Shown here: piece after piece, positions 784 through 62,031 of the stretch | How the letters are laid out: each line of letters starts with the position of its first letter | How positions within the stretch are numbered: the first letter of the stretch is position 1 | Assembly (NCBI GenBank): GCA_022749815.1 | Contig: JAKIWV010000002.1 | Location: 62,001-126,000 of the forward strand | Length of the DNA: 64,000 bases | From: Thermoplasmata archaeon | GTDB lineage: Archaea > Thermoplasmatota > Thermoplasmata > Lutacidiplasmatales > UBA184 | Reading direction: 5' to 3' | Translations under genes and position numbers: made by a program | The notes under the pieces: model-generated | Told to the model about the DNA's origin: nothing | Databases searched by the model: none | The model's input: the letters and a program-made list of their open reading frames with translations, nothing else

Positions 784-2817
784 ATGAGCCGACGACCAGG
801 CCACCGCCGCCCGGGCGCGCTCGCCCTCCTCGGCTCGGCGCTGCTCGTCGCGCTGCTCCTCTGCGAACTCCCGGCCGCGGCGACCGTACCGGTCGCGTCC
901 GCGGCGCCCCTCTCGCCCGTCGGGTCCGCCGACGGCCTCCGCGCGACGTCGGCGAGCGGGTCTCCGTCGAGCGCGTCTCCGGTAGGTCCCCCCACCCCGT
1001 ACTGCTACCCGATCGACCCCACGGCCTGCGTCGCCGCCGCGTCATCGACCGAGCCGAACATCGTGCCGCCGGCCGGGACGACCTCCGCGACCGTCGAACC
1101 GACCTCGAACACGAGCCTTCCCTTGCTCGTGAAGTCTCGTCTCTCGCTGAATTGGACCAACGCGCCCACGCCGCATTTCGGCCCCAAATCGCCGATCACG
1201 CTCAACGCGACCGCGGTGCTCTGGAATGGGGACCCGTACTACTCGGTCTGGGACAACACCGTGTGGCACAGCGCCAGCAACAACACGCTGTGGACGTGGT
1301 ACGGGTACGAACCGCAGAACAAATCGTATCCGTTCTGGTACGAGGTGAACTTCTCGGCCCGCTCCCCGACGGGGCCGAACTTCTTCCCGGGCATGTCGGT
1401 GACGTGGTGGCTCGAGCTCACCTACAACCGGAGCGGAGTCTTCTCGCACAACGAGAGCCTGCGATTCAGTTACCGCTACGCCGGCGCGTGGGCGTATTCC
1501 CCCTGGCCCGGAGCGAAACAGTACGCCGGTAATGCCGCGGTGTCGCTCGACCTCAACCTCAGCTTCACTCCGGCGCGGCCGAACTGGAACGATTCGGTGG
1601 CCATCGCGATCGCGACCACCCCGGCGGACGTCTTCAGCCAAGCGAAGATCCGGTCGGCGTACGTCGACCTGAGCGAGGTCAGCGCCAACGGAACGCCGCT
1701 CGCGAACGGGACGCTGGTCTACGCCGTTCCCTCGAACGCCTCGGGAGGGGTGCCGGCCGCCACCGTCATCGTTCCGGCCACGTGGGCCCAGGCCGCCGGG
1801 GCCACCGTGACCTACCGGGTCACGGCGTTCGACGGCGCCGCCGACCAGCTCACGACGACGGTCCTCCATTACGTCGTGGGGGGGAATGGCTCGTTCGATT
1901 CCGGCCTGTTCGTCGACGACCTCGCCCTCACGATATCGCCCAACTCCATCGTGGCCGCGAGCAATGGGCCGGCGACGATACCGGCCGGCCAAATCGTGGC
2001 CCTCGGCCTCACGAGCCGGGACCCGACCTCGGCGATCCAGTTCGCCCGCATCCAATACTCGTTCTCCGCCCCGCTGGTCGGAGACCTCGTCCAGGGAACG
2101 TTGTCGTTGGGCCGTGGGACCTCCACCAACTGGACCGGGGCGCTGCCCGGGCTCCCGATCGACACGAACGTGAACTTCACGGTCCAGGCCTGGGATTTCC
2201 AGAACCGCCTCGAGTCGTCGCCGCGGTTCGCGTACCACGTCGAGGGTCTGGCGGGGTACGCCCCCGCGATCCCGGCCAACGCGACGTTCTTCTACGTGTT
2301 CGTCTACGACAGCGGGAGCGGCACCTGGGTCAACGGGGCCGTCGTCCAGATCCGCAGCCCGAGCGGCTACCTCAACTCGATCAGTCGGACGACGTTTGGA
2401 GTCGCCTATCCGAACGGGTCGTTCGACCCGTTCGCTCCGCTCCTGCTGCCGGCCAACGTGACCTACCGGATCTCCGTCGACGACCCGGCCTTCGTTCCCT
2501 CGAGCGGCCCCGTACAGCAACCGCTCGTGCTCGACTTCCCGGCACCGCACTCCCTCACCATCCCCGGTGGGGGAGAGCACGGGACGCTCATCCAGGCGCC
2601 GACCTACACCGTCCTCGTGGAGGGGGATGCCCTCCTCTTCTGGCTCAATGGAACCCCTCCCGGACCGGCGCCTTCGGCGTCGCTCGCTGCCGCACAGATC
2701 TCCCTTCCCCAGGTGGTGGGGCTCGTCGCGGCGGTCGCACTGACGGTGCCGTTGCTCGGCTGGTGGGGGCAACTCCGGAAGCGGCGCAAGGCGGAGGAAC
2801 GGAGGATCACGCTCTGA
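784..2817 (+). CDS. Large surface protein with signal peptide and C-terminal anchor, KAE-RRITL tail
   Basis: 677 residues. The N-terminus has a basic start and a hydrophobic core (about residues 11-30), typical of a Sec signal peptide. The long middle is rich in beta-forming residues and N-x-S/T sequons, as expected for a glycosylated extracytoplasmic protein, with Ig-like segments but no domain I can name. A single hydrophobic helix (about 641-661) is followed by a basic cytoplasmic tail ending KAEERRITL. The next protein ends KAEQRRITL, so the tail looks conserved. The stop overlaps the next start (ATGA at 2817-2820), pointing to coupled translation. Function unknown; adhesion or cell-envelope structure is only a guess. 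Confidence 0.8.
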   Translation: MSRRPGHRRPGALALLGSALLVALLLCELPAAATVPVASAAPLSPVGSADGLRATSASGSPSSASPVGPPTPYCYPIDPTACVAAASSTEPNIVPPAGTTSATVEPTSNTSLPLLVKSRLSLNWTNAPTPHFGPKSPITLNATAVLWNGDPYYSVWDNTVWHSASNNTLWTWYGYEPQNKSYPFWYEVNFSARSPTGPNFFPGMSVTWWLELTYNRSGVFSHNESLRFSYRYAGAWAYSPWPGAKQYAGNAAVSLDLNLSFTPARPNWNDSVAIAIATTPADVFSQAKIRSAYVDLSEVSANGTPLANGTLVYAVPSNASGGVPAATVIVPATWAQAAGATVTYRVTAFDGAADQLTTTVLHYVVGGNGSFDSGLFVDDLALTISPNSIVAASNGPATIPAGQIVALGLTSRDPTSAIQFARIQYSFSAPLVGDLVQGTLSLGRGTSTNWTGALPGLPIDTNVNFTVQAWDFQNRLESSPRFAYHVEGLAGYAPAIPANATFFYVFVYDSGSGTWVNGAVVQIRSPSGYLNSISRTTFGVAYPNGSFDPFAPLLLPANVTYRISVDDPAFVPSSGPVQQPLVLDFPAPHSLTIPGGGEHGTLIQAPTYTVLVEGDALLFWLNGTPPGPAPSASLAAAQISLPQVVGLVAAVALTVPLLGWWGQLRKRRKAEERRITL

Positions 2818-4763
2818 TGATGGCCCGATGGCACTGGCCGGCCCTCGTCGTCACGGTTACGCTTCTGACGATCCTCAATGCGTCGCCGGCCGGCCTCGCC
2901 CTCCGGCCGGGGAGCCCCGCGGGCACGGGAGCCGCGCCTACCCCGCCCCCCATCCCACTCCCCCTCGGGGAGGCCCTGGGGGATGGTCCTTCGCCGGTGC
3001 CGGTTGGTCCGCACGTCGTTCCTCCGTCGGCCCCCCCGCCGATCCGGGCCTTGACGCCGGCCCCGGCGCCCAACTGCCCGACGCCCCAGAACCTCCCCGC
3101 ATGGTCGGGACCATCGTTCTTCCACGATGTCGAGGTGCATCCCGCGGTGCCCTCGCATCCCGAGCTGTCCGGTGCGAGCTTCCAGGTCGTCCCCTGCACA
3201 ACGGTCCTGCCGACGTACTCGAACGGGTTCTGGTTCAACCTCAGCACGAACGTCCGGCTCTCCCAAGTCGCGGTACAGGTCTGGGCCACCGGGTGGCCCA
3301 CTCCCGCGAACCCCCAGCCGTGGCTGCCGGGGTTCCGCCCGGACCATCCGGCGCTGTTCCCGATGGTGATCACCGGCAGCCAAGGCACCTCGGCCTCGTT
3401 CTTCTTCAATGTCTACCACTACTTCCCGCCGGGAACGAACGTCTCCTTCAATCTCACCGCGATCTCGAACGACCCGAGCGCCTCGCCGAGCAGCATCTAC
3501 TCCGCCCAGGGGATCTACTCAGAACCCGAAACGTACGCCGGCGGGATCGTCCTCAATGCGACATGGATGTTCACCGTGGCTACGCCGTGGCGCTCGACCA
3601 ATTTCAGCGAGGACATCGCCGTGTCGACCAGCCCGCCGGTGCTGCAATCCCCGGCCTTCGAGCCGAACCGGTACCAGGCACTCCAGGTGTCGATCCAATC
3701 GTTCAACCTGACCGGCGGCCCGACGACCCCCATTCCGGCCGCCATCCTCAACGCCACGCTGATGGGGGCGAGCGGCGGGTTCGCCCAGTACACCTTCGGC
3801 CCGCAGAACCACTCGATGATGAACCTCACCGTGCCGATCGGGCCGTACCCGTCGACCGACGTGTCCTTCTATATCACCGCCTACCTCCCCTGGCTGGGGG
3901 GCTCGGTCGACCCGATCACCAGTCCGACGTTCTCGTTCAGCTGGTCGGCCAACGGCGGCTGGTGGTACCCCTCGAGGGGGGTCGAGGCGAACCTCCAGGT
4001 CGGGGTATCCCCCACCTTCGCTCCGCCGGGCACCGCGACGCGCCTGCCGACGGGGGAGCCCGTGACCGTGACGCTCCACTCCCCCACGCCGAACGTGACG
4101 ATCGGCTCGGCCCAGCTGGCCTTCCTGTACACCGACTCCGTCGGGTCGCTGAAGGGTTCCGTGCCGATGTCGGCCCTCTCGGCGAACACGTCCCTGATCC
4201 GGATCCCCGGGCTGCCCGCCGGCGCCACCCTCACGTTCTACCTAGTCGCGAAGGACATCTACCAGGACCCGATCACCTCGGGCAACATGTCGTACTCGGA
4301 ATCCGGACCCCCGAAGCTGGCGCCCCCGGCCGGGGAAGGCCTGTTCGTCTTCGAGGCGCTCGACCTCTCGACGGGCCACCTCGTGCCGTTCCTCAACTTC
4401 ACCCTCGCGAACGACACCTGGTCGACGACCGGCGTCGGCTACGCGTTCGGCTTCGCCGAGCCGCTCATCGGTCCCCGGACCGACGCCCTCCCCGTGGCGT
4501 TCGGGAGTTACTCGGTCACCTCGACCGCCTTCGGCGCGACCGGGCACGCCGCGGTCACGCTCCACAGCGTCGGCCCCGTCGTCGTCGTCTTCTACGTCGC
4601 TTCCGGCGCCGTGCCGGTCCGCACGGGGGCCGGGAGCCCGACCGCCGAGCTCGCGGCGATCATCGGACTCGCCGCCGGCGCCGTCGCGGCGTGGCCGATC
4701 CTCCGATGGTTCTCCGAGCGCCGCGCCGCGTCGAAGGCGGAGCAACGACGCATCACACTATGA
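2817..4763 (+). CDS. Second surface protein with the same C-terminal tail
   Basis: 648 residues starting at the ATG in the ATGA overlap with the previous gene; a second ATG follows at 2820. Residues about 6-24 form a signal peptide, then a Pro-rich linker, then a long sequon-rich beta domain that partly resembles its neighbour. A C-terminal helix (about 612-631) ends in ILRW, followed by a basic tail ending KAEQRRITL. The same ILRW...KAE arrangement occurs just inside the second helix of the ATPase encoded next, which is unusual and may mean shared ancestry of the anchor regions. Probably transcribed with the genes on either side. Exact role unknown. Confidence 0.8.
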   Translation: MMARWHWPALVVTVTLLTILNASPAGLALRPGSPAGTGAAPTPPPIPLPLGEALGDGPSPVPVGPHVVPPSAPPPIRALTPAPAPNCPTPQNLPAWSGPSFFHDVEVHPAVPSHPELSGASFQVVPCTTVLPTYSNGFWFNLSTNVRLSQVAVQVWATGWPTPANPQPWLPGFRPDHPALFPMVITGSQGTSASFFFNVYHYFPPGTNVSFNLTAISNDPSASPSSIYSAQGIYSEPETYAGGIVLNATWMFTVATPWRSTNFSEDIAVSTSPPVLQSPAFEPNRYQALQVSIQSFNLTGGPTTPIPAAILNATLMGASGGFAQYTFGPQNHSMMNLTVPIGPYPSTDVSFYITAYLPWLGGSVDPITSPTFSFSWSANGGWWYPSRGVEANLQVGVSPTFAPPGTATRLPTGEPVTVTLHSPTPNVTIGSAQLAFLYTDSVGSLKGSVPMSALSANTSLIRIPGLPAGATLTFYLVAKDIYQDPITSGNMSYSESGPPKLAPPAGEGLFVFEALDLSTGHLVPFLNFTLANDTWSTTGVGYAFGFAEPLIGPRTDALPVAFGSYSVTSTAFGATGHAAVTLHSVGPVVVVFYVASGAVPVRTGAGSPTAELAAIIGLAAGAVAAWPILRWFSERRAASKAEQRRITL

Positions 4764-4779: not shown

Positions 4780-7700
4780 ATGAACAGTCCCACATCCCCG
4801 GCGCCGCGCTCGCCGACCATGCCCGCCCGGCCGATGGCCCCTCCGCCACCGCCGCCCTCGGCGCCGGCGTCGCCGCCCCTCGTCGCCGGCCCGGCGGCCC
4901 GGCCACCGTCCCGACGACGGAGGATAGGGAAAGTCCTGCTCGTCGTGGGCCTCGTCCTGGCCGTCGTCGGCGCGGTGCTCCTCTTCGTGCCGGTCGTCGC
5001 GCAGCCCAGCCAGACGGTCCAGACCACCAGCAGCACCCCGTACGTGGCCTTCACGGTCAGCGGATTCTCGCTGACCGGGAGCATTCCCGTCTCCGTTTCC
5101 TGGACCTCGACGGCGAGCGTGACGGTGCTGGCCGCCGCGTGCTCCGCCCAGTGCAGCGGGAATCCGAGCTCGATCTCCGGGCTGACGACGCAGACCGGGA
5201 CGAGCGGAAAGTTCACCTTGAACCAGCCGGACGGCGGCGCCGTCGTCCTAGGAGCGCTGAACGTCGGCGGAGCGGCCGCTGCCGTGACCTTCAAGGTGAC
5301 GACGGCGCTCACCTCGATCGGGTCGATCCTCCTCATCGTTGGCATCCTCCTCCTGGTCGTCGGCATCCTGCGATGGTCCCGCAAGGCCGAGATGCCGGCG
5401 GCCGCGATGGCCGCCGCTCCAACGGGAGCTCCCGGGGCTCCCCAGCCGCTGGCATCGGCCCCGGCCGGTGCCCGACCCGGGGCCCGGCCCCTGGGATTCC
5501 GGGGGAGGAATCGGGTCTTCTGGGCCTTCCTCGTCGCGGGACTCATCTTGCTCGGCGTCGGCGCGGGGCTCGAAGGGACCTTCTATCCGTACGTGGCGAA
5601 CGCCCAGAGCGCCTCCGCGTTCCTCGCCTCGGCCCACGCCGTCCAAACCTCGGACCCGTCGGTGCAGATCGTGACGATCTCCGGAAGTTCGGTGGCCGCC
5701 GGCACGACGATCGTGCTTCAGGATACGGTGAGCTCCGTGAGCTACAACGCGGCGACCGGCACTACCTCGCTCGGCTTCCAATCGATCGCCAACTTGCCGG
5801 CGGGGGTCCGGAGCCAGCAATCGGCGCTCGCCGCAGAGCTGTTCGGAACGGTGCAGGGCGCGATGGGCTGGGTCACGACGGGGTCGCCGATCGTGATGAC
5901 GTTCACCGTGGTCCGGGCCCAGTTCCCCGGGGGTCCGTACAACGGACAGAGTTACCTCACGCTGGACGCCCAGGCCGACGCCACGTACGCTGCCCTCCAG
6001 CACGGGGTCACCGGCCCGGCCGCCGTCGCCGTCGGGCAACAGTACTTCCAACCGTATCCGGCTCCCCTGTACGACGACCTGTTCATCTTCCTCGCCGCTC
6101 TCGGCGGGCTGCTGGTCGCGGTCGGCTACTTCTTCTCGGACAAGATCGCCCGCTGGCTGCTCAAGGAGACGAAGGAGCCGAAGCACGTCGGGGCGATCGT
6201 GATGGGCATCACGGCGCTGCTCGGCGGAACGTTCGTTCCGTTCTACCCGTGGCCGGCGGTGCTATTCATCGCGGTGGCGGTCTTCGGAGTCGCGTGGCGA
6301 TTCCCCCAGCTCTCCCTCCTTATCCTGGTCCTCCTCGTCGCGCCGGAGGTCGGGTACCAGTCCGGCGCGATGGGATTCGTGTTCCTGTTCGCGGCGATCC
6401 CCGTGCTCTTCGCCGGTCTGTTGGACTGGCGATTCGGACTCGGGGCGTTTCTCACCCTGTTCCTCGCCCCGCTGGGCCTATCGTTCGCGGTGCCGATCTT
6501 CCTCGCGCTCATCTTCTCGCTCTCGTTGGGCATCGCCGTCGCCGTCGCCGGAGGGGTGCTCATCAGCCTGTTCGTGACCCTCGGCAATCTGCCCGTGCTC
6601 GGCTACCTGGTCGGCCCCGGTTCTTCCAGCACCGGCACGCTGATCGCCGGCCACGCCGCGGCGCTCAACCCCGTGCTCCCGCTCCCGTACTTTTCCTTCA
6701 ACGCCATCGGCGCCGCCTACGGCAACATCGTGAGCCCGAACCTGGCCACCCTCGGCCAGGGGGGCGTCGGCCTCGGGGCGATCGCCATCCCGCTCGCCGA
6801 GGTGGTGGTCTGGTGCGTCGTCGCGTGGCTCCTCGTCCGCGAGCTGAAGGACCGGGAGCACCAGGAGACGGATCGCCTGGCCCGCTACTCCTCGATCTCG
6901 GGCGGACTGCTCGCGGTCACGACGTTCGCCGCGGTCGCGACGTTCGGCTACATGGGGTGGTGGAACCTGGCCCTCCTGCTGTTCATCCCGGCGATGCTGA
7001 CCGTCGCGGCAGGCTCGCTGGTCACGCGCGACGCCTTCGAGGCCTATTTCACCTCGCGGCTCGGCGGCTCTTCCGTGGGCACCCGGGTGGCCGAGATGAA
7101 GGGGCTCACGAAGGTCACGTTCGAGATGGTCGGAGGCCTGCACGACGTGAAGGCCGACATCAAGGAGTCGCTCGTGATCCCGCTCATGCGTCGCGACGTG
7201 ACGGCGCGCTTCAAGCTCGAGCCGCCGAAGGGGATCCTCCTCTTCGGGCCGCCGGGGTGCGGCAAGACGATGTTGATGAAGGCCCTCGCGTCGGAACTCG
7301 GCGTCGAGATGATCTCGATCAAGTCGTCGGACCTGATGAGCAAGTGGTACGGCGAGAGCGAGAACCGGATCGCCGAGCTGTTGCGAACGGCCCGGGAACG
7401 CGCCCCCTCGATCCTGTTCATGGACGAGATCGACGCGATCGCGAAGCGACGCGACATGTACACCGCCGACGACGTCACGCCCCGGCTGCTCTCGATCCTG
7501 CTCGCCGAGCTGGACGGGATCGACAAGTCCGTGGGGGTCATCGTGGTCGGCTCGACCAACAAGCCCGACCTGATCGACCCGGCGCTCATGCGACCCGGCC
7601 GGCTCGACAAGATCGTCTACGTGCCGCCGCCGGACTTCAACGAACGGATCGAGATCCTCCACGTGCACCTCGTCGGCCGCCCGGTGAAGCGCGACGTCGA

Positions 7701-8856
7701 CCTCGCCGAGATCGCGAAGAAGACGGAACGGTACTCGGGCGCGGACCTGGCGAACCTGGTCCGCGAGGCGGCGACGATCGCCGTGCGCCGGCAAATGACG
7801 AGCGGCGTGGTGACGCCGATCACCATGGACGACTTCCGCCACGTCCTCCCCAAGATCAAGCCCTCGATCTCGCTCCGGGTCATCGCCGAATACGAGACGA
7901 TGAAGCTCGACTACGAACGGAAGATGCACCAGGCCCAACGGATGGAGCGGAAGATCGTCGTCCATTGGGACGACGTCGGGGGCCTCGCCGACATCAAGCA
8001 GGCGATCCGGGAGTACGTCGAGCTCCCCCTCACCCGCCCCGAGCTCATGGAGAGCTACCGGATCAAGACCGGCCGGGGGATCCTGCTCTTCGGACCGCCG
8101 GGCTGTGGGAAGACCCACGTGATGCGGGCCGCCGCGAACGAGCTCAACATCGCGATGCAGATCGTCGCCGGGCCGGAGCTCGTTACCGCGCTCGCCGGCC
8201 AGTCCGAGGCGGCGGTACGGGACGTACTCTACCGGGCGCGCGAGAACGCCCCGTCGCTCGTGTTCTTCGACGAGATCGACGCGCTCGCGAGCAAGGAATC
8301 GATGCGCACGCCCGAGGTCTCCCGGGCGGTGAGCCAGTTCCTGACGGAGATGGACGGCCTCCGGCCGAAGGACAAGGTGATCGTCATCGCGACGACGAAC
8401 CGCCCCCACACGCTCGACCCGGCGTTGCTGCGGCCCGGCCGGTTCGACAAGATCTTCTACGTCCCGCCGCCGGACGACGCGGCCCGGCTCGACATCTTCC
8501 GCATCCACCTCAAGGGAGTGCCGATCGAGGGAACGCTCCAGTACGAGGAGCTCGCCCAACGGTCGGCCGGGTTCTCCGGGGCCGACATCGCCGCCGTCGT
8601 CGACGACTCGAAGCTCATCGCGCTCCGCGAGGAGATGGCGCGAGAGAGGTCGCGGGCCGCGGTTCCGGCCGGCGCCGCGGCGCTGTTCGCCGTCGGGACG
8701 ACCCCGGGCCCGGCGGCTCCCGCCGCGCAGACCGCCGTAGTGGGCGTTCGCATGTCGAACCTCCTCGAGGCGCTGGCCAAGACGCGCTCCAGCATCACTC
8801 CCGAGACACTCCGATGGGCGCAGGACTTCATCCGGGACTACGGGACGCGGAGCTAG
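4780..8856 (+). CDS. Multi-pass membrane protein fused to two CDC48-like AAA+ ATPase domains
   Basis: 1358 residues. A Pro-rich N-terminus leads to helix 1 (about 50-73), an extracytoplasmic domain of about 100 residues containing CSAQC, helix 2 (about 178-198), an Ala/Pro linker, helix 3 (about 246-268), a second extracytoplasmic domain of about 165 residues, helix 4 (about 434-454), then roughly eight more helices up to residue 750. AAA domain 1 has a Walker A at 823-830 (GPPGCGKT) and Walker B with D882-E883. AAA domain 2 has a Walker A at 1105-1112 and D1164-E1165. Both keep the NxPxxxDPAL..PGR sensor/arginine-finger region, so both look active. CDC48-type proteins are normally soluble with an N-terminal double-psi barrel; here a large membrane module takes its place. 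A role in unfolding or extracting membrane or surface proteins is inference. Confidence 0.85.
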   Translation: MNSPTSPAPRSPTMPARPMAPPPPPPSAPASPPLVAGPAARPPSRRRRIGKVLLVVGLVLAVVGAVLLFVPVVAQPSQTVQTTSSTPYVAFTVSGFSLTGSIPVSVSWTSTASVTVLAAACSAQCSGNPSSISGLTTQTGTSGKFTLNQPDGGAVVLGALNVGGAAAAVTFKVTTALTSIGSILLIVGILLLVVGILRWSRKAEMPAAAMAAAPTGAPGAPQPLASAPAGARPGARPLGFRGRNRVFWAFLVAGLILLGVGAGLEGTFYPYVANAQSASAFLASAHAVQTSDPSVQIVTISGSSVAAGTTIVLQDTVSSVSYNAATGTTSLGFQSIANLPAGVRSQQSALAAELFGTVQGAMGWVTTGSPIVMTFTVVRAQFPGGPYNGQSYLTLDAQADATYAALQHGVTGPAAVAVGQQYFQPYPAPLYDDLFIFLAALGGLLVAVGYFFSDKIARWLLKETKEPKHVGAIVMGITALLGGTFVPFYPWPAVLFIAVAVFGVAWRFPQLSLLILVLLVAPEVGYQSGAMGFVFLFAAIPVLFAGLLDWRFGLGAFLTLFLAPLGLSFAVPIFLALIFSLSLGIAVAVAGGVLISLFVTLGNLPVLGYLVGPGSSSTGTLIAGHAAALNPVLPLPYFSFNAIGAAYGNIVSPNLATLGQGGVGLGAIAIPLAEVVVWCVVAWLLVRELKDREHQETDRLARYSSISGGLLAVTTFAAVATFGYMGWWNLALLLFIPAMLTVAAGSLVTRDAFEAYFTSRLGGSSVGTRVAEMKGLTKVTFEMVGGLHDVKADIKESLVIPLMRRDVTARFKLEPPKGILLFGPPGCGKTMLMKALASELGVEMISIKSSDLMSKWYGESENRIAELLRTARERAPSILFMDEIDAIAKRRDMYTADDVTPRLLSILLAELDGIDKSVGVIVVGSTNKPDLIDPALMRPGRLDKIVYVPPPDFNERIEILHVHLVGRPVKRDVDLAEIAKKTERYSGADLANLVREAATIAVRRQMTSGVVTPITMDDFRHVLPKIKPSISLRVIAEYETMKLDYERKMHQAQRMERKIVVHWDDVGGLADIKQAIREYVELPLTRPELMESYRIKTGRGILLFGPPGCGKTHVMRAAANELNIAMQIVAGPELVTALAGQSEAAVRDVLYRARENAPSLVFFDEIDALASKESMRTPEVSRAVSQFLTEMDGLRPKDKVIVIATTNRPHTLDPALLRPGRFDKIFYVPPPDDAARLDIFRIHLKGVPIEGTLQYEELAQRSAGFSGADIAAVVDDSKLIALREEMARERSRAAVPAGAAALFAVGTTPGPAAPAAQTAVVGVRMSNLLEALAKTRSSITPETLRWAQDFIRDYGTRS

Positions 8857-8937: not shown

Positions 8938-9303
8938 ATGGAGCCCGGGGCTGCGCCGACGCGGGCGACCACGCCGTCGGACCCGGACCTCTGGTTCGCC
9001 ATCGGGATCGTGGGGGTCGTCCTGTTCCTGGTCGGCGTCTACCAACCCGCCCTTGCGCATGTCCCGTACCCGGGCGCGGTGCAGACGGTGGTGGCGGCCG
9101 CCGGCGCCGCCACGGCGGTGCTCGGGTTCACGTTCTCGTATCGCGCCCGGGCCGCCCGGCCTCGTCCGGCGCCGACGCGCGCCGCCGACCAGGTCCTCCG
9201 GCTCGGCCCGAGCGTCGAGGTCTACGACCCTCGAAGGGCGGTCGACCGCTCCCTCCCGCCGGAGGACACCTCCGGAGAGCCGATGGAGTCGGGCCCGCCA
9301 TGA
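8938..9303 (+). CDS. Small two-helix membrane protein
   Basis: 121 residues. Two hydrophobic segments (about 20-38 and 47-67) form a hairpin, with a polar Pro/Arg-rich cytoplasmic tail. No family recognised. The stop overlaps the next start (ATGA, 9300-9303), so it is likely translated together with the giant protein that follows. Its position between the membrane ATPase and the repeat protein suggests an accessory subunit, which is inference. Confidence 0.65.
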   Translation: MEPGAAPTRATTPSDPDLWFAIGIVGVVLFLVGVYQPALAHVPYPGAVQTVVAAAGAATAVLGFTFSYRARAARPRPAPTRAADQVLRLGPSVEVYDPRRAVDRSLPPEDTSGEPMESGPP

Positions 9304-12300
9304 GCGACGGGGGCGGCTCGGCCCGCCGGGGGCCGGCGGCACGGCTCGCCGCGGTGGTCGGATTGGTCGCTCTGCTGGTCGTGCCGGGCTTGGTGGGCCT
9401 CGCGACGGCGCCCGGGTCGGTTCCGACCCCGGGGGCCTCCTCCTCTGCCCCGACGCTCTCCCCTCGAGTATCTTCCTCCCTCTCCGGAACCGCCGCGCCC
9501 GTACCCCCGCTCTCGGTGAGTTGTCCTCTGGGGTTCCCCACGTACCACCCCGTCGGGGACGGGTGGCCGCTCTCCCCCTCGCAGGTGTACCAGACGCCGT
9601 GTCCCCCGGTGGGGCACGACCAGGTCCACGCATCGTTCTTCTCCGCGGTGTCCGGCTCGGGGGAACGGTTCACCGAGTCGGTGTATCTCCCGACGGCGGG
9701 GGGCGGGCCGTTCGCCCAGGGGGACAGTTTCTCGGCGCTGTATGTAGGGATGGTCGTCCACGGCGACCCCCGGTCGGAATGGAACCAGTCGTACGCCCAG
9801 GTCGTCTTCGCGCCCATCTCCGGCGGCGCGAAGTACTCGGAGAACCTCACGATCTGGTCGCTCGTGAACCTCTCGAAGCTCACCGTCCCCTGCCCGGGGC
9901 TCAACCTCAGCTGGAACAACAGCTACTTTTGCGAGGTCGATGACGTGGCCCATGGCGCGGGCACGACGCTCACCTCCGCCCTCACCGGCGGTAGCTGGGT
10001 TACAGTGACGTTCGACGGGAACGTCTCCGCCACCGACGGCGTCCGGGTGTGGGTGAACGACTCCGCGACGCCGTTCGTCAACGAGACACTCCGGCTCAAC
10101 GTCTCCACGACGGGGAACTACACGTTCGAGCCCTACTTCCGGAGCGCCTGCCCCAACGCCTGCGTGCTCAACTGGTCGGTCCAGTTCGGGACCGGGATCG
10201 GCTTCGACCTGTGTCCGACCGTTCTGACCGCCGGGGGTCCCTGCAATTCGTACAACGAGACGACGCTCCGACACCTGCCGGCCGCATCCTTCGGCCCGCC
10301 GGAGTACTTCGCCAACGGGTCGTACCGCAGCGACTACCGGTACTTCGCGCCCGAGTCAACCAGCGGGGCGTGCACCACGCAGGCGCCTCCCGGGACCGTG
10401 GCGTCGTGCGTCGACTTCAGCCCCCCGCTCGGCGGCTCGTCGTACTACCCGTTCTTCACCTTCAACGGGAGCTCGGTGAGCTTCGGCACGAACGCGAGCT
10501 GGACCACGCACGATTGGGGTCAGGCGCTCGGCCAGTTCGCGACGACGGCGGTGCAGACCGACCTCGGGCCGTTGTTCCTCGACTCGGTCACCAACTCGAG
10601 CCGGGCCGGGTTCGTCGGCCCGGGACTCCCGATCAACGTCTCGGCCGGCCTCGAGCTGTGGGGCGCGGGCCTCACCGCGACGCTCCACTTCCGGGTGAAC
10701 ACGATGCCGTGGTCGACGCTGCCGATGACCCTCGTCGGCGGGCCCGGTCCGAGTGGCCGCTACAACGCGACGATCCCCGGCGCCGGGGGCGACGGGACCG
10801 TCGCCGAGTGGGTCTCGGCGACCGACGGCACGGGCGCGACGGTCCGGTCGGCCAACGCGACGGTCGTTCGCGGCGTCCTTCCCCAGTTCCAGCTCCACCT
10901 GCTCACCGTGCCCGCCGGGTGCGGCGGGATCCGCTTCAACGGAACGACCGATGGGTCGGGGAGCGTCGTCTCGGTCGGCCCCGGCACGTATCCGGTCTCG
11001 GCGAGCCCGTGCTATCCCTACGCGTTCAGCGTGTGGAACGCGACCCCGGGCCTCCGGCTCTCTCCGGGCCCCGGAACATCTCGCGGAACCCTCTCGGTAT
11101 CCGCCAACGGGACGCTCACCGGCGTCTGGCGCTATGTACGCCCCCTGGACACCGTCACGCTCCTCACGTCGCCCGCTTCCTGCGGGACGATCACCCTCAA
11201 CGGGACGCAGTACACGAACGGCGCGATGGTCGGGCTGCTCGACCAGCTGAACTTCTCGCTCTCCGCGACGGCGTGCGGAGGGGCGCTGTTCGCCGGCTGG
11301 CACGTGGTGGGCCCCTTGGACATCCTGGGCGCCAACATCGAGCCCCGGGGCAACGGAACCCTGACGGCCACCTTCGTCGCGGCGACCTCGGCGTTCTCGC
11401 TCACGTTCCACACCACGCCGGCCACCTGCGGTGGCGTGGGGTTCAACGGGGCGGGCTACACCGACGGGGAATCGTTGGGCGTACTCGGCGGAACGTACCC
11501 GATCGCCCCCGAGCCGTGCGCCCACTACGGTCTCCTCGACTGGGCCCCCACGGGCGGGATGACCGTGAGCGGCCGCAACCTGACCGTGACCTCCGCGGGG
11601 TCGCTCACCGAGGACAACCTCCGCCTCACCGAAGTGACGATCGCGACGTTCCCCGCCACCTGCGGAACGGTGACGTTCGATTCCGTCGCCTACGTGAACG
11701 GCGCCGTCGTGGTCGTCTCCAACCACACCCTGCACCTCGCCGCAGGGAACCCCTGCGCCGGACGGTACCTGTTCGCCCTGACGGCGAACGGGAGCGTGAC
11801 CGTCCAGGGGAACGTCGTGTCCGTGGATGGACCCGGCACCTTGCTCGCCACCTTCCTGAGCGGGACCCCGCAAGCGTTCGTCGGATTCCTGACGGACCCC
11901 CGGTACTGCGGCGCGATCGACTTCGGGGGGACGACCTACACCGATAGCAACTTCACCCGGGTGGCGCCCGGGACGGTCTGGAGCGTCGCGCCGGCGAGCT
12001 GCGCGAACTACGGGTTCGTGCGGTGGACCGTGACCGGGTCGATCTCGCTCGTCGGAGCGTTGGCCTACGTCAATGGCTCCGGCTCGATCACGGCCGTTTA
12101 CCGGCCGCTGGTACCGGTCTTTCTCGCCACGGCGCCGGCCACCTGCGGAACGGTCCGGCTCGACGGAGTGGCCTACCCGGACGGAACGACGGTGAGCGTG
12201 CCCATCGACCGTTCGTACCTTCTCTCGGCCGTTCCGTGCGCCTTCCATGCCTTGGCCGGATGGGTCAACTCCTCGGCGGCCTGGCTGGGACCGGCAACGG

Positions 12301-13004
12301 TGACCTTCTTCGGGAGCGCGATTCTGACCGCCGACTTCAGCCCGATCCCGTACGCGGTCGCGGTACAGCTAGGTCCGGGGTCGTGCGGTTCCGTGGCCGT
12401 CGGCGCGGCCGTCGCGGCGTCCGATACGGTGCTCGACCTGGTCGCGCAGAGCTACCGGTTCCAGGCCCTCCCCTGCACCGGCTGGACCGAGGTCGGCGCG
12501 ACGACCGCCGGGAACCTGAGCCTGCTCGCGGGGCTGCTCAACGTGACCGGGGCCGGGACGCTCACCGTGACGTTCGGTCCGGTCCCGCCCAGCCTCCGCT
12601 TGAGCGTTCCGGCGTCGGCCTTCGTGGGGATCATCGTGCCGTTCACGGCCGCCGTGGCCTACCCCTTGGCCCTCCCGGGGTACGCGTACACGTGGAGCTT
12701 CGGGGACGGAAGCGCCGCGGTACACACGCCGGTGAACTTCACGTCCCACACCTACGCCACCGCCGGAACGTTCCGCGCAACCGTCACCGTGCTCGACCCG
12801 TACAACCGGACCGCGACCGACACCCTGACCGTGACGGTCATCGTGCCGCCGGGGGGCGGGGCGTTCGGCGGCCTCTCCCGCGGAATCGAGGTCGTCCTCG
12901 GGATCGTCGCCGCGACCGGGGCCGCCGTGGGAGTCGGTACGCTCTTCCTCCGCCGCTCACATCGTGGGGGGGCCGTCGCGCCGACGAGCCCCCCGGAGAC
13001 ATGA
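9300..13004 (+). CDS. Giant surface protein with seven Cys-paired repeats, PKD domain and C-terminal anchor
   Basis: 1234 residues. A signal peptide (hydrophobic core about 16-36) precedes a sequon-rich N-terminal half of about 500 residues. From about residue 525 to 1097 there are seven tandem repeats of about 80 residues, each beginning near a CG-x-(I/V)-x-(F/L) motif followed by a (Y)xDG-like turn, with a second Cys about 30 residues later and ending in a T(L/I)TA(T/V)F-like strand. They resemble divergent InlB-type B-repeats, with a likely disulfide in each. A PKD domain follows (WSFGDGS ... HTYATAGTF), then a helix (about 1195-1217) and a short tail. Start and stop both sit in ATGA overlaps. 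Probably an adhesin or stalk protein. Confidence 0.8.
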   Translation: MSDGGGSARRGPAARLAAVVGLVALLVVPGLVGLATAPGSVPTPGASSSAPTLSPRVSSSLSGTAAPVPPLSVSCPLGFPTYHPVGDGWPLSPSQVYQTPCPPVGHDQVHASFFSAVSGSGERFTESVYLPTAGGGPFAQGDSFSALYVGMVVHGDPRSEWNQSYAQVVFAPISGGAKYSENLTIWSLVNLSKLTVPCPGLNLSWNNSYFCEVDDVAHGAGTTLTSALTGGSWVTVTFDGNVSATDGVRVWVNDSATPFVNETLRLNVSTTGNYTFEPYFRSACPNACVLNWSVQFGTGIGFDLCPTVLTAGGPCNSYNETTLRHLPAASFGPPEYFANGSYRSDYRYFAPESTSGACTTQAPPGTVASCVDFSPPLGGSSYYPFFTFNGSSVSFGTNASWTTHDWGQALGQFATTAVQTDLGPLFLDSVTNSSRAGFVGPGLPINVSAGLELWGAGLTATLHFRVNTMPWSTLPMTLVGGPGPSGRYNATIPGAGGDGTVAEWVSATDGTGATVRSANATVVRGVLPQFQLHLLTVPAGCGGIRFNGTTDGSGSVVSVGPGTYPVSASPCYPYAFSVWNATPGLRLSPGPGTSRGTLSVSANGTLTGVWRYVRPLDTVTLLTSPASCGTITLNGTQYTNGAMVGLLDQLNFSLSATACGGALFAGWHVVGPLDILGANIEPRGNGTLTATFVAATSAFSLTFHTTPATCGGVGFNGAGYTDGESLGVLGGTYPIAPEPCAHYGLLDWAPTGGMTVSGRNLTVTSAGSLTEDNLRLTEVTIATFPATCGTVTFDSVAYVNGAVVVVSNHTLHLAAGNPCAGRYLFALTANGSVTVQGNVVSVDGPGTLLATFLSGTPQAFVGFLTDPRYCGAIDFGGTTYTDSNFTRVAPGTVWSVAPASCANYGFVRWTVTGSISLVGALAYVNGSGSITAVYRPLVPVFLATAPATCGTVRLDGVAYPDGTTVSVPIDRSYLLSAVPCAFHALAGWVNSSAAWLGPATVTFFGSAILTADFSPIPYAVAVQLGPGSCGSVAVGAAVAASDTVLDLVAQSYRFQALPCTGWTEVGATTAGNLSLLAGLLNVTGAGTLTVTFGPVPPSLRLSVPASAFVGIIVPFTAAVAYPLALPGYAYTWSFGDGSAAVHTPVNFTSHTYATAGTFRATVTVLDPYNRTATDTLTVTVIVPPGGGAFGGLSRGIEVVLGIVAATGAAVGVGTLFLRRSHRGGAVAPTSPPET

Positions 13005-16000
13005 CCGTGCACGGAAAGGCGCGGGCCGGCTCCTCTCCCGCCCGGTGGCGGCGAGCGCGCGGTCCGTTCCGATGGTCGCTCCGGGACACGAGCGTCCCAT
13101 TCTCCGTTGTCATCCTTCTCGCGCTGTTGCTCTCGGCGCTGCCGCCGCTCGGAGCCCCGGGGCGCTCCGCCGCCTCGCCCGGGGGCGCCGCGCCGGCCGC
13201 GGCACCAACGCCCGGGTCGGCGGTGTCGCCGCTCGACCGGCCCATCGCCGAGGCCGCGGCGAGCGCCTTCGCCACCGCGACGCACCGTGCTCTCGGCTCG
13301 CTGAGCGTCGGCGCTCCGACGCTCCCTCCACGCCTCGCGCTCTCGACGCGCGCCCCGACCGGCTCCGAGACCCGCGCCGCGGTGCCCTCCACCGCCAACG
13401 CGCTCGTCACCGGCTCGAACTGTACGTTCGAGAAGACCGTCGCCACCGTCGCCAACGCATCGAATACGATCGAGGTCGGTGCGACCAACGTGTGGCCGCT
13501 GTTCAACGGCACATTCGGCACTCCCTGCACCGCCGCCTCGCCGAGCGGGTTCTTCTGGAGCCACGGCATCTCTGGCGCCTTCCGGTCGACGAACGGGGGC
13601 GACCAGTGGACGAGCGCGTTCCTGGCCCTCAACCGGACCCACTGGCTCAACCCCTCCGACCCTGCGTACGGCTCGCTCAACTGGGGAGAGCCCGATGTCG
13701 TGAGTGGCGGGGCGGGACTCCTCCTCTATTCCGACCTCTTCGTCCAGCTCTGCGACCTCTTCCTCACCCCGTGCAATTCGAGCGCCGGGTTCACCGCCCC
13801 GTGGGGAGTGGCGGTGGCGCGGTCGTCCGACGGGGGGGCGAGCTGGTCAGCGCCGGAGCAGGTCGCCGCCTACCCGTTGGAACAGAACATCACCTCTCCG
13901 CCGAACTGCCAGGGGACCGTCCCGAACGGGACCTACCTCTGGGACGAGGCAGACAAGCCATGGCTCACGGCGAACCCCGCGAACGGCGTCGCCGTCCTTG
14001 GTTGGGACGTTTTCCACTTCCGGTTGAACGCGACCACCTGCCTGTTCGACGTGACCGCCGACGTATGGGTGTCGGTCTCGCACGACGCCGGAACGACGTG
14101 GGGCGCCGCGATCCGCCTGGGGGGACCGGCGGCGCTCGACGTCCAGCTGGCCGTCGGCCCCGCGCCCACGTACCCCCTCGAGGCCGTCTTCGCGGACTTC
14201 GCGAACCGGACGGCCTCCGGATCCTCCTGGGGATTCACCTCCTCGAAAGACAACGGAACGACCTGGGCGCCGGCCACCGATGTCGGCTCGGGGATCGTGC
14301 ATCCCATCCCCCCGACCGCCGCGCCCGACGTGTTCCGCGCGCTGACCTTCCCTAGCATGGATGTCGACGCGAGCTCCACCTCCTCCCGCGGCAACACCGT
14401 CTATATCGTCTGGAACGACAACCGGACCGGGCCGCAGGCCGGATATCCGGGGATCGATTTCATGGCCGGCCCGAACGGGGGCAGCTCGTTCATCGCACCG
14501 CGGCTCATCTCGCCGGTCGGCACGTCGGTCACCGATTACCAGCCGACGGTCCGGGTCGACCCGAACGGGAGCGTGTGGGTCGACTACTACGGACTCAACC
14601 GGTCGACTGGCTTCTACGACGTCTACGGTCTACTGTCGAACGACGGCGGCGCCACGTGGTCGGCTCCGTTCCGGATCTCCTCAGCGGTCAGCGCGCCGGG
14701 GAACGCCATCGTGACCGACATCGGGGTCTACTTGGGACTGGTGGCGAGCGCCCAGGGAGTGTACGCGGCCTGGACCGATTGCCGGTCGCAGGACTGCATG
14801 AACCTCAATTTCACCACCGCGGAGACCGCGCGGCTCGGAGAGGTCGCGGTGCGGACGAACGCGACCAGTCCGGTGTCGCTCACGGTGGGGACGCTGGGAC
14901 GCTCCTCCTCCGTTCCACTCCCGGGCGTCCTCGGGCTCGATTTCGGGGCCTCCGTCTCGTTCGCCGTTCCTGCCTACTTGCCGTACAACGCGACCTTCGT
15001 GGACGGGTTCACGAACATGACCGGCGTCGTGAGCGTCACCACGCCCTCGACGACGTTCGTCTATTCCGGGGGGGCGTCCCTGTTCATCACCTACGTCCCG
15101 TCGCGCGCCGCGTTCATCGCGGGCACGATTGCTCCGGCGGTGGCCGGCGTCGCCGTTTGGGTGGGGGGGGTTCCGACCCCGCTCCTGCCCGTCAACCCGA
15201 CAACGGACTCGTTCAACGTGACGGTGGCCGGAGGCCTGTCGTACGCAGTGACCGCGACGGCACCGAAGTACATTCCCTTCTCTCACGCCGCGGGGGCCGT
15301 CTCCGGTGCGACCACTACGGTGGACATCCGGCTCAACCGGACCCACGGGTGGATCGCCGGGAGCGTGGCGCCGACCAACGCGACCGTGACGGTCAACCGT
15401 TCGGGCCCGCTCCCGGTGAGCCCGGGAGGGATCTTCAACACGACGCTGGGGTGGGGCTGGTACTGGGTCAACGCCTCCGCGTTCGGAACGACGACCTCCG
15501 ACCAGTACGTCCAGGTCGTGCCCAATCGGACCCGGGCGCTCTCCTTCGCCCTCGAGGGCGGTTGGATCCAGGGAACGGTGGCCCCGATCCAATCGGCCGC
15601 CACTCTTAGAGTGGACGGCCATCCGGTGCCCCTCACGCTCGGGTCGTTCAACGTCTCGGAGCTCGGAGGGTTGCACGCGGTCGTCGCGACCGCGCCCGGG
15701 TGGAACGTATCGTCCCTCCAGGTCCGGGTGACCCCGGCCTTCACGACGATCGTCTCGCTCACCCTCACCGACAAGGGGACCGTACAGGGGGTGGTGGGCC
15801 CCGCCGCCGCGCTCCCATCGGTCGTGCTCCGGATCGTCAATGGAAGTCACGGAGGGCTCGAGCAGATCAATCTCACGTCGGGAGCGTTCCGGGCTCAGCT
15901 CGCCGGCGGGTTCGTGTACACAGTCAACGTGACCGCGACGAACTACGGGTCGTACCAGACGACGGTGCGCATCGATCCGGGCGTCACTTCCACCGTTCCT

Positions 16001-16318
16001 GCGGTCACGCTGGTCTACACCGGCTGCGCCGCCCCGTGTTCCTCCACGCCCCCTCCGAAGGGGAACGTCTCTCCTTCCTCCGGGAACACGCTCCTCTACG
16101 TGGGAGCGGCCGCCGGTACCGCGGTGTTGGTCGTGGCCGCCGCGGTGGTCCTCTCCCGGCGGCGCCGTTCCCTTCCGGCCCAGACCGCCGCGGGCGAGAC
16201 CCCCGCCCCGGCGCCGCCGCCCGAAGAGCTTTACGGAGAGGGCGAGCCGGCGACCCTGCCCCACCTCCGGTCGGACGGGACGTTCGAAGACTCCTCGCGG
16301 GGTCCCCCGCCTCCCTGA
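13001..16318 (+). CDS. Sialidase-like (Asp-box) surface protein with regulatory-like repeats and C-terminal anchor
   Basis: 1105 residues from the ATG overlapping the previous stop. A basic segment is followed by a hydrophobic core at about residues 27-45. Residues about 190-560 carry five Asp-box motifs of S-x-D/N-x-G-x-x-W type (for example SSDGGASW, SHDAGTTW, SKDNGTTW, SNDGGATW), the signature of sialidase/BNR beta-propellers. Residues about 700-1003 hold four repeats of 75-85 residues opening with (I/V)xGxVAP, like PEGA or carboxypeptidase-regulatory folds. A helix at about 1029-1051 and a 54-residue Pro-rich tail end the protein. A glycan-binding or glycan-cleaving surface role is plausible, but catalytic residues cannot be assigned. 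Confidence 0.78.
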   Translation: MTVHGKARAGSSPARWRRARGPFRWSLRDTSVPFSVVILLALLLSALPPLGAPGRSAASPGGAAPAAAPTPGSAVSPLDRPIAEAAASAFATATHRALGSLSVGAPTLPPRLALSTRAPTGSETRAAVPSTANALVTGSNCTFEKTVATVANASNTIEVGATNVWPLFNGTFGTPCTAASPSGFFWSHGISGAFRSTNGGDQWTSAFLALNRTHWLNPSDPAYGSLNWGEPDVVSGGAGLLLYSDLFVQLCDLFLTPCNSSAGFTAPWGVAVARSSDGGASWSAPEQVAAYPLEQNITSPPNCQGTVPNGTYLWDEADKPWLTANPANGVAVLGWDVFHFRLNATTCLFDVTADVWVSVSHDAGTTWGAAIRLGGPAALDVQLAVGPAPTYPLEAVFADFANRTASGSSWGFTSSKDNGTTWAPATDVGSGIVHPIPPTAAPDVFRALTFPSMDVDASSTSSRGNTVYIVWNDNRTGPQAGYPGIDFMAGPNGGSSFIAPRLISPVGTSVTDYQPTVRVDPNGSVWVDYYGLNRSTGFYDVYGLLSNDGGATWSAPFRISSAVSAPGNAIVTDIGVYLGLVASAQGVYAAWTDCRSQDCMNLNFTTAETARLGEVAVRTNATSPVSLTVGTLGRSSSVPLPGVLGLDFGASVSFAVPAYLPYNATFVDGFTNMTGVVSVTTPSTTFVYSGGASLFITYVPSRAAFIAGTIAPAVAGVAVWVGGVPTPLLPVNPTTDSFNVTVAGGLSYAVTATAPKYIPFSHAAGAVSGATTTVDIRLNRTHGWIAGSVAPTNATVTVNRSGPLPVSPGGIFNTTLGWGWYWVNASAFGTTTSDQYVQVVPNRTRALSFALEGGWIQGTVAPIQSAATLRVDGHPVPLTLGSFNVSELGGLHAVVATAPGWNVSSLQVRVTPAFTTIVSLTLTDKGTVQGVVGPAAALPSVVLRIVNGSHGGLEQINLTSGAFRAQLAGGFVYTVNVTATNYGSYQTTVRIDPGVTSTVPAVTLVYTGCAAPCSSTPPPKGNVSPSSGNTLLYVGAAAGTAVLVVAAAVVLSRRRRSLPAQTAAGETPAPAPPPEELYGEGEPATLPHLRSDGTFEDSSRGPPPP

Positions 16319-16399: not shown

Positions 16400-16834
16400 G
16401 TGGACGTACCGCTGTATGCCCTCGCCCTGGCGATCTTCGCGATCCTCTACCTCGCGATCGGCGTCTTCCTGGGCTTCACCCTGATCATCGCCCTCGTGCT
16501 CCTCTTCGCCTATCTGGCGCTCCGGTACGGGAACCTGGCCGAAAACTATCCGCACTCGGCCCCCGACTCGATGATCACGGTGATCTTCATCGGCATCACC
16601 TGGGCGATCTTCACCTATCTGGGGTCGAAGAACCCGGTCCCGTTCGTCGGGAATGGGCTCACCTACACGCCGGGGACGGCCTTGCCGTTGCCGGCGCTGA
16701 TCGCGATCAGCCTGGTCGTCGCCGTGGCGTTCCTGGCCATTGGGTCGTTCCTCGGCCGCGACGTCCTGGCCGGCGGCCCGGTCGGCGGGACCCGCGGAGA
16801 GACCGGTGGCACGCCGCCCACCGGCGTCCGGTAG
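16400..16834 (+). CDS. Small integral membrane protein
   Basis: 144 residues from a GTG start placed just downstream of a clear TATA box. Four hydrophobic stretches are visible: two near-continuous ones at about 5-43, one at about 57-76 and one at about 96-118. The C-terminus is Gly/Thr/Pro-rich and polar. I do not recognise a family. Having its own promoter, it is probably a separate unit from the surface operon upstream. The 120 bases after it show nothing clear. Confidence 0.65.
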   Translation: MDVPLYALALAIFAILYLAIGVFLGFTLIIALVLLFAYLALRYGNLAENYPHSAPDSMITVIFIGITWAIFTYLGSKNPVPFVGNGLTYTPGTALPLPALIAISLVVAVAFLAIGSFLGRDVLAGGPVGGTRGETGGTPPTGVR

Positions 16835-19807: not shown

Positions 19808-21010
19808 ATGACGGATACCGAGCCTGCGAGTCAGAACGCCGATTTCGACCGCGTGAACTTCCTCGAGTTGAGGAACAGCCAACTCGCCGAGGCCATCAAG
19901 CGCGTGGAGAGCGAGCGGCACTACATGGAGGCGGAGATCCTCCGCCTGCAGCGCGAGGTCAAGCGGCTCAAGACCGAGCTCGACCGTCTCCGGTATCCCC
20001 CGCTCATCGTCGGGAGCGTCCGAGACATCCTCACCGATGGTCGCGTCGTCGTCAAGTCCTCCACCGGTCCGGACTTCGTTGTCAACTCCGCGGAGAACGT
20101 GGAGCACGACAAGCTCACCGTGGGCTGCCGGGTGGCGCTCAACAAGCAGACCCTCGCGGTCATGGGCGTCCTGCCGGCGTCCGTCGACCCGCTCGTCACC
20201 GCGAGCGAGATCGTGGAGAAGCCCAACGTGACCTACGCCGACATCGGGGGCCTGGGCGACCAGATCCGCGACATCCGTGAGGCCGTGGAGTATCCGCTCC
20301 TGCGAACCGAGCTCTACAAGAAAGTGGGCGTCGAGCCGCCGAAGGGTGTGCTGCTCATCGGTCCGCCCGGGACCGGCAAGACCATGATCGCGAAGGCGGT
20401 CGCGCATCACACCCACGCGACGTTCATCCGTCTCGTGGGGAGCGAGCTGGTCCAGAAGTACATCGGCGAGGGCGCGCGCCTGGTCCGGGAGCTCTTTCAG
20501 CTCGCGCGCGAGAAGTCCCCTACGGTCATCTTCATCGACGAGATCGACTCGATTGGCGCGAAACGACTCGAGGTCGCGACGAGTGGGGACCGGGAAGTCC
20601 AGCGGACGCTCATGCAGCTGCTCGCCGAGATGGACGGCTTCGAGCCGCTGGCCAACACCAAGATCGTGGCCGCGACCAACCGTCCGGACATTCTGGACGA
20701 AGCCCTGCTCCGGCCCGGCCGATTCGACCGGATCATCGAGATCCCGATCCCATCGTATCAGGGCCGAGCCGAGATCTTCAAGATCCACTCTCGCCCGATG
20801 GCGATCAGGGACACGATCGATTTCGACGCGTACGCGTTGCGGACCGACGGGGCGACCGGTGCCGATATCAAATCCATCTGCACCGAGGCGGGAATGTTCG
20901 CGATCCGTGAGGAGCGCGACTACGTGACGGCCGCCGACTTCGACCGCGCGATCGAGAAGGTCGTCGGCGACGAAGAACTCCACAAGGAGTCCGTCACGAT
21001 GTTCGCCTAG
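19808..21010 (+). CDS. pan: Proteasome-activating nucleotidase (PAN)
   Basis: 400 residues. An N-terminal coiled coil (about 15-62) precedes an OB-type domain (about 65-125) and one AAA+ domain with Walker A at 185-192 (GPPGTGKT), Walker B VIFIDEID and the ATNRPDILD...RPGRFDR sensor/arginine region. PAN forms the hexameric cap that unfolds substrates and opens the 20S proteasome gate. The last three residues are MFA: the usual Hb-Tyr-X docking motif has Phe instead of Tyr. The proteasome beta subunit and a CDC48/VAT unfoldase are elsewhere in this window. Confidence 0.95.
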   Translation: MTDTEPASQNADFDRVNFLELRNSQLAEAIKRVESERHYMEAEILRLQREVKRLKTELDRLRYPPLIVGSVRDILTDGRVVVKSSTGPDFVVNSAENVEHDKLTVGCRVALNKQTLAVMGVLPASVDPLVTASEIVEKPNVTYADIGGLGDQIRDIREAVEYPLLRTELYKKVGVEPPKGVLLIGPPGTGKTMIAKAVAHHTHATFIRLVGSELVQKYIGEGARLVRELFQLAREKSPTVIFIDEIDSIGAKRLEVATSGDREVQRTLMQLLAEMDGFEPLANTKIVAATNRPDILDEALLRPGRFDRIIEIPIPSYQGRAEIFKIHSRPMAIRDTIDFDAYALRTDGATGADIKSICTEAGMFAIREERDYVTAADFDRAIEKVVGDEELHKESVTMFA

Positions 21011-61359: not shown

Positions 61360-62031
61360 CTAGGGAAGGACCGGCGGTAGGGGGATCTTGAGTGCCTTCA
61401 GGCGTTTATTGATTTCGTCCTCGGAGAATTCGCGGTATTCCTTGGACGTGATCGTGTGGATCAGGTATCCATCACCGGACGCGGAATCTCGCTTCATGGC
61501 GACCGTGAGGCCGCGCAGCGCGAGATCGACGCCGTCCGAGAGGGTCATGTCGCGGGAGTAGCCCTCTTCCAGCAGGCCGTACGCAAAGGTAGACCCACTG
61601 CCGACGGAGACGTATCGGTCCTCGATCGAGCCGCCGGCGGGGTCGACGGAGAACACGTGGCCCCCCTTCGTATCAACGCCGCCCATCAGGAGCCAAGCGT
61701 AGTAGGGAAACATGCGGTTGCCGCTGAGGATGTTCGAGAGGAGGGTGGCGGCGCCCTCGACGCTCAAGGGCGCGCTTCGACGAAGCCGGTACAGGGAGAC
61801 CTCCGCCCGGAGATACCGGGCGAGGACTTGGGCGTCTCCCACCAAGCCCGCGATCGTGATGCCGATGTTGTTGTCGATCTTGAACACTTTCTGAGTCTGC
61901 TTCGCGGCGATCATGCTGCCGGCCGTCGCCCGGCGCTCGGTGCCGAGCACGACGCCGTCTTTGCAGACGGCGGCGATCGTTGTGGTGCCTTTCAGTAGCC
62001 GCTCTTGATCGGCGATTTCGATGCGTTGCAT
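61360..62031 (-). CDS. psmB: Proteasome beta subunit (20S core)
   Basis: 223 residues from the ATG at 62031. A 15-residue propeptide ends in Gly; mature Thr1 begins TTTIAAV, with Glu17 and Lys33 in the expected places and SGNRMFP-type and GSG motifs intact, so it is catalytically complete. The longer open frame runs past a strong TATA box at 62081-62090 and is not used. It forms the proteolytic rings that PAN and VAT feed. The alpha subunit is not in this window. Confidence 0.96.
   Translation of the reverse strand: MQRIEIADQERLLKGTTTIAAVCKDGVVLGTERRATAGSMIAAKQTQKVFKIDNNIGITIAGLVGDAQVLARYLRAEVSLYRLRRSAPLSVEGAATLLSNILSGNRMFPYYAWLLMGGVDTKGGHVFSVDPAGGSIEDRYVSVGSGSTFAYGLLEEGYSRDMTLSDGVDLALRGLTVAMKRDSASGDGYLIHTITSKEYREFSEDEINKRLKALKIPLPPVLP

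Follow-up and report, generated by a model that had tools for sequence, protein, structure and literature searches.

What does a tandem CDC48-class AAA+ ATPase do when it is built into the membrane? CDC48-type unfoldases are usually seen as soluble proteins that adaptors recruit to membranes. The question is raised by a gene of a Thermoplasmata archaeon (assembly GCA_022749815.1, genome of 2.08 Mb), found on contig JAKIWV010000002.1, of which positions 62,001 to 126,000 of the forward strand were analysed. This stretch of 64,000 nucleotides (nt) is called the window, and all positions refer to it. The gene encodes a protein of 1358 amino acids (aa), here termed membrane AAA, in which two AAA domains follow about twelve transmembrane (TM) helices. 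An original prediction from the sequence had stated that no described protein of this design is known, and none was found: the family is undescribed in the family models, solved structures and papers searched, and its motor is of a known class. Profile searches, topology and structure prediction, AAA phylogeny and a survey of neighbouring genes, all proposed with that prediction, yielded a real family, a separate AAA clade and two surface proteins, A and B, encoded upstream. Together with a small membrane protein, C, they form a co-inherited four-protein set that is confined, as far as found, to Thermoplasmatota. The favoured reading, with a probability of about 0.5, is that of a membrane-embedded extractase or unfoldase that would pull membrane or surface clients into the cytosol, A and B being tail-docked external receptor subunits.

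A conserved membrane-integrated AAA protein

The AAA gene comprises the following parts:
4780..8856, + strand: membrane AAA+ protein, 1358 aa, a single intact open reading frame that starts 16 nt after gene B
4933..5373, + strand: extra two-TM unit with ectodomain, residues 52-198
5512..6144, + strand: TM-ectodomain-TM unit, residues 245-455, present in the window's family and absent from the f2 homologue (AlphaFold2, AF2)
6145..7035, + strand: conserved polytopic membrane core, residues 456-752 (alignments, phylum-wide profile matches)
7108..7920, + strand: membrane-proximal AAA domain D1 with lid, residues 777-1047, pore loop KWYGESE
7954..8640, + strand: AAA domain D2 with lid, residues 1059-1287, intact here, pore loop ALAGQSE
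8767..8853, + strand: conserved C-terminal tail, residues 1330-1358, ending FIxxYGTRx

Both AAA domains, each followed by AAA_lid_3 in Pfam, are intact as predicted. Walker A (GPPGCGKT) lies at residues 823-830 and 1105-1112, Walker B with its DE pair is intact twice (ILFMDEID at 878, LVFFDEID at 1160), and sensor-1 asparagine and RPGR arginine fingers are present in both. Across the family, D1 Walker A is intact in all homologues that cover D1, and the aromatic D1 pore loop KW/RWYGES is near-invariant and kept in every homologue spanning this domain. The D2 pore loop ALAGQS has none of the aromatic residues of the D1 loop KWYGES. D2 Walker A is lost in L096, L047 and L048 and altered in L095, L097 and L099, and in L098 D2 is missing altogether; where D2 degenerates by Walker A/B changes, D1 stays intact. 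Since the D1 pore loop is kept while D2 decays, D1 is probably the indispensable motor. Behind D2 there is only the short tail and, according to Pfam, no M41 zinc peptidase. This agrees with the earlier claim that peptidase and layout of FtsH are absent, as does the TIGR01241 (FtsH) score of 431.6 against a cut-off of 600. A route to the proteasome via an HbYX motif was rejected because complete C-termini in the window's family lack this motif and end in YGTR[G/A/S/T/Q].

The predicted dozen or so membrane helices and two extracytoplasmic domains were recovered by hydropathy, positive-inside charge counts and AF2, which agree on an N-terminus inside and a cytosolic AAA part. TM helices at residues 52-72 and 178-198 enclose the first ectodomain (73-177), a cytosolic linker follows, and a second pair (245-267 and 433-455) encloses the second ectodomain (268-432). 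Roughly eight more crossings up to about residue 752 make up the membrane core; two broken or re-entrant helices leave their exact number uncertain. The AAA part stands directly behind the last TM helix, on the charged cytosolic side, both by topology and in the AF2 model. For residues 236-775 this model, built from 46 sequences, reached a mean predicted local distance difference test (pLDDT) score of 85 and a predicted TM-score (pTM) of 0.81.

The membrane core, with its motifs PFYPW, YQS, DWRFG and GLSF, is the hallmark of the family. Residues 1-757 and pieces of them gave only sub-threshold noise and no family match in Pfam and NCBIfam, and a profile of the core had no match among PDB sequences up to E=10. 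Foldseek found no solved fold for the membrane module (best E 0.34 in PDB, 0.19 among viral structures, TM-score at most 0.15 over the query). In Foldseek, the second ectodomain (5581-6075) resembles OB folds (SSB proteins), but only weakly and without reaching significance. Both ectodomains are absent from the f2 homologue L090. The first two-TM/ectodomain addition (residues ~37-237) occurs in no other family member examined. Two stand-alone paralogues of this unit are encoded elsewhere in the same genome (G000:C3:17034-17624 and G000:C1:100700-101290, 60% and 33% identity), and related genomes of the family carry it as separate genes, too. Apparently, a small membrane-protein family was fused onto the AAA gene in the window's species.

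The fusion of membrane and AAA parts is a real conserved trait, well beyond what chance would give. The core (residues 456-775) is joined to the AAA domains wherever the DNA spans both, and the same order persists in relatives down to about 25-30% identity in the core. The machine is carried by some archaea of soils and sediments that belong to a single phylum. Within the class, 59 of 400 genomes have the core, and a sample of 390 genomes from the whole phylum, other classes included, gave 29. It was also found at 55 loci in named records titled Thermoplasmata, Thermoplasmatota, Methanomassiliicoccales or Euryarchaeota. Judged by the AAA protein, the nearest named relatives are Thermoplasmata of acid soils, including Candidatus Lutacidiplasma silvani. 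No family member outside Thermoplasmatota was found in the searches. On a short contig of a 'bacterium' metagenome-assembled genome (L107, JAKBKR010000241.1), typical A and B genes stand together with the beginning of a membrane AAA gene; this is probably a mis-binned archaeal contig. The spread is patchy. All five other members of the window's genus lack the family, and so do near-complete relatives, including a member of the same taxonomic family rated 100% complete.

How does this motor relate to CDC48? It had been proposed that a membrane module replaces the N-domain of a CDC48/VAT protein. The tandem CDC48-class AAA domains in a polytopic protein stand; the derivation from VAT is not supported. 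Both AAA domains match the CDC48 profile in its D2 section (TIGR01243 positions 448-731), and the whole protein, with two D2-type matches, scores 528.1 bits against a cut-off of 802.65. Separate CDC48 matches are present in 41/41 genomes searched, above the family cut-off in 39 including the window's genome. In trees, which are limited by sparse coverage of other AAA families and by long branches, the first and second domains (MEM-D1, MEM-D2) form two separate groups (support 100/99 and 100/100) and stand together against CDC48, PAN, FtsH and Msp1 with moderate support (92/90). Msp1 lies outside the MEM group on a very long branch (3.24). A clade of MEM-D1 with CDC48-D2 was rejected in the approximately unbiased (AU) test (p-AU 0.024). 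Because of this placement outside CDC48 D1 and D2, the membrane AAA looks like a sister AAA lineage and not like a VAT with an exchanged N-domain. An ordinary CDC48 gene is present in the same window at 46102-48324 and a PAN-type proteasomal ATPase gene at 19808-21010.

Comparison with known systems gives partial likenesses only. CDC48, p97 and VAT share the tandem AAA+ domains of the same class. However, they carry a double-psi-barrel N-domain, whereas the membrane AAA has a polytopic membrane module and no N-domain match in Pfam or NCBIfam. Msp1/ATAD1, the outer mitochondrial transmembrane helix translocase, which extracts tail-anchored proteins, resembles it in an AAA ring directly below the membrane, the KWYGES pore loop and the lack of a peptidase. 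Yet Msp1 has one TM helix, a single AAA domain and neither ectodomains nor dedicated surface partners, in contrast to two AAA domains and about twelve helices here. FtsH and YME1 are likewise membrane-integrated AAA unfoldases with the entry face at the membrane, but combine one AAA domain behind two N-terminal TM helices with a C-terminal M41 zinc peptidase, while the membrane AAA has two, about twelve TM helices and no peptidase. PAN is an archaeal CDC48-class AAA, too, but soluble, with a single AAA domain and an HbYX tail. Prokaryotes generally have one CDC48 type (Kienle, 2016, PMC5070193). Among eukaryotes, the Spaf-like proteins of core eudicots are CDC48-family double AAA proteins with a TM region (PMC5070193); this, however, is a C-terminal membrane anchor, and a polytopic N-terminal module and surface partners are lacking. 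The openly searchable literature, with subscription papers outside reach, contained no description of the membrane AAA protein.

Surface proteins A and B and protein C

The partners of the AAA protein in the window are:
784..2817, + strand: surface protein A, 677 aa (AF2, Foldseek, homologues upstream of AAA in relatives, TM positions)
2794..2817, + strand: A tail tag E-E-R-R-I-T-L-stop (pattern match)
2817..4763, + strand: surface protein B, 648 aa, paralogue of A, whose start overlaps the A stop
4740..4763, + strand: B tail tag E-Q-R-R-I-T-L-stop (pattern match)
16400..16834, + strand: protein C, 144 aa, 3-4 TM helices, co-inherited, displaced from the AAA gene here

A consists of a signal helix, a disordered linker, a chain of immunoglobulin (Ig)/FnIII-like beta-sandwiches, one C-terminal TM helix and a cytoplasmic tail of ~16 residues. 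Its AF2 model (pLDDT 82) has Ig-like Foldseek matches with E about 1e-8, and TM helix and tail are modelled as one continuous helix. B has the same type-I layout with signal helix, long ectodomain, one C-terminal TM helix and a ~16-residue tail. A and B share only ~20% overall identity, and the tail E-[EQ]-[KR]-R-[IV]-T-L-COOH ends all 62 complete A and B proteins of these lineages (30/30 A, 32/32 B). At the DNA level, the tail pattern matched 44 times in 25 of 52 whole genomes, all 25 of which bear the AAA gene, and every match whose neighbourhood was examined is an A or B gene. A reversed control pattern had no match in the 52 genomes. The pattern is strict and missed some true tails, e.g. 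in G034, G036 and G265, so that rarer tail variants on other proteins are possible.

The order A-B-AAA is kept in the Lutacidiplasmatales loci that reach far enough upstream, with mostly 5-52 nt between B and AAA. In 20 genomes, A/B homologues were present in exactly two copies in the 4 that bear the AAA gene and absent from the 16 that lack it. Of 13 AAA-bearing genomes, 12 have C, whether or not it is linked to the AAA gene, and none of 16 AAA-less genomes has it; these co-inheritance counts for A/B and C ignore relatedness among genomes. In distant lineages, C is the next gene after AAA, and the stop codon of the one often overlaps the start of the other; in the window's clade C has moved away, to 12-37 kb in other genomes. 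Several C proteins (L081-L090) end in a conserved VGVGA or VGMGA, a possible second C-terminal signal; the copy in the window does not.

Some lineages have an A/B-type ectodomain joined in frame to the AAA protein at its N-terminal end. This was detected by BLAST in L095, L098 and L099 (E 1e-7 to 1e-8, 26% identity) and, by weaker matches or inspection of the sequence pattern, in L096, L097, L100 and L102. The idea that the tail is lost exactly upon fusion proved only partly true, as unfused single surface proteins in distant lineages lack it, too. Membrane module, partner set and shared tail match no identifiable known system.

Extraction, export or quality control?

The best hints at function come from A, B, C and the fused ectodomains, all of which the original prediction had missed. 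According to the favoured extractase reading, the AAA protein would form a hexamer with its polytopic N-terminal half in the membrane. The AAA rings follow the last TM helix without a gap, which should place the entry face of D1 against the membrane, like that of FtsH and Msp1. The aromatic D1 pore loop would grip a client, draw it from or across the membrane into the cytosol and unfold it, and D2 would serve as an auxiliary, dispensable second ring. Since there is no peptidase, clients would be released or handed to cytosolic proteolysis. A and B would be dedicated type-I receptor or scaffold subunits with Ig-like chains outside, whose helical TM segment and tail would dock on the AAA protein or its membrane module, and C would be a small structural membrane subunit.

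Several points weigh against this scheme. Pulling, its direction and the existence of a client are inferred, and hexamerisation is assumed from the AAA family. The lineages with one separate surface gene (L047, L048, L101, L103, L104) have no tail, so docking there must work otherwise. No known fold matches the membrane core, so that its structure does not reveal a path for translocation. Furthermore, the other secreted proteins at the locus would also fit a role in export or surface assembly.

Could A and B be clients instead of subunits? Their tail might be a degron or extraction tag for removal or turnover by the membrane AAA, by which the cell surface would be controlled. In favour of this, the tail is free, C-terminal and cytosolic, it was seen only on A and B in the genomes scanned, and both proteins are always co-inherited with the AAA protein. 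Nevertheless, the fusion of A/B-type ectodomains to the AAA protein itself in other lineages argues for a permanent subunit, and a tail of ~16 residues that forms one helix with the TM segment in the model is short for pore initiation and speaks more for docking. A client role is possible, though clearly less probable than that of receptor subunits.

The motor might also work outwards. ATP hydrolysis below the membrane would then alter the conformation of surface structures, assemble them or export them, and A, B and the large secreted proteins encoded downstream would carry these structures. Many proteins of the locus are secreted, and across the window's clade two such genes are conserved downstream of the AAA gene; an A/B-AAA fusion would couple motion across the membrane. 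By analogy with FtsH, Msp1 and CDC48, however, AAA rings of the CDC48 class should translocate from their N-terminal face, which here would face the membrane, and in other lineages the downstream secreted genes are replaced by unrelated ones. This proposal appears about as doubtful as the client role.

General membrane-protein quality control, with the AAA protein as an archaeal stand-in for membrane extractases and A and B as sensors of stress or misfolding instead of dedicated client receptors, is improbable. The layout resembles that of Msp1 and FtsH, and the genomes also encode CDC48 and PAN-type ATPases, so that the membrane AAA would be an extra, membrane-specific unfoldase. The patchy spread, with absence from the five other members of the genus and from near-complete relatives, is unlike that of a housekeeping system. 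Finally, the misassembly of an ordinary VAT with unrelated membrane helices, a danger named with the original prediction, can practically be dismissed: dozens of separately assembled Thermoplasmata/Thermoplasmatota genomes have the same architecture, and this genome encodes its CDC48 in an intact gene elsewhere. No evidence for misassembly was found; only residues 37-237 of the AAA protein are unique to this genome.

In this gene set, the motor comes with a polytopic membrane module and with dedicated surface subunits, in some lineages as one chain. Should the machine extract or retrotranslocate proteins, it would offer a minimal setting for studying how a CDC48-class ring is coupled to the membrane without ubiquitin or separate adaptors, and it would show that such coupling evolved independently in archaea. 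A wider and more tentative view is that of a new kind of transmembrane machine, in which a CDC48-class double ring with a new membrane fold is physically linked by a tail code or by fusion to Ig-like surface proteins, and cytosolic ATP hydrolysis acts on proteins outside or draws them in. If this holds, for which the odds are well below even, prokaryotes would have, in a single operon, an equivalent of the p97 machinery for dislocation at the endoplasmic reticulum. The tail shared by A and B is a candidate recognition signal that can be tested directly, and the list of components follows from their near-complete co-inheritance.

Other genes at the locus

Three further genes follow the AAA gene:
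8938..9303, + strand: small protein D, 121 aa, about two TM helices, S(F/V)EVYxP motif, behind the AAA gene throughout the window's clade
9300..13004, + strand: large secreted protein with repeats, PKD domain and C-terminal TM helix, conserved next gene in the window's clade (37-46% identity)
13001..16318, + strand: large secreted protein with BNR-like repeats and C-terminal TM helix, conserved next gene in the window's clade

In other lineages, D and both large secreted genes are replaced by other genes. PADLOC and NCBIfam matched no known system among the neighbours of the locus. On the AAA protein, PADLOC gave only the generic IetA/TRIP13 models, and no defence partner was found among the neighbours. 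Upstream of A, positions 3-683 hold the C-terminal part of another conserved surface-protein gene (47-59% identity in relatives), which crosses the left edge of the window.

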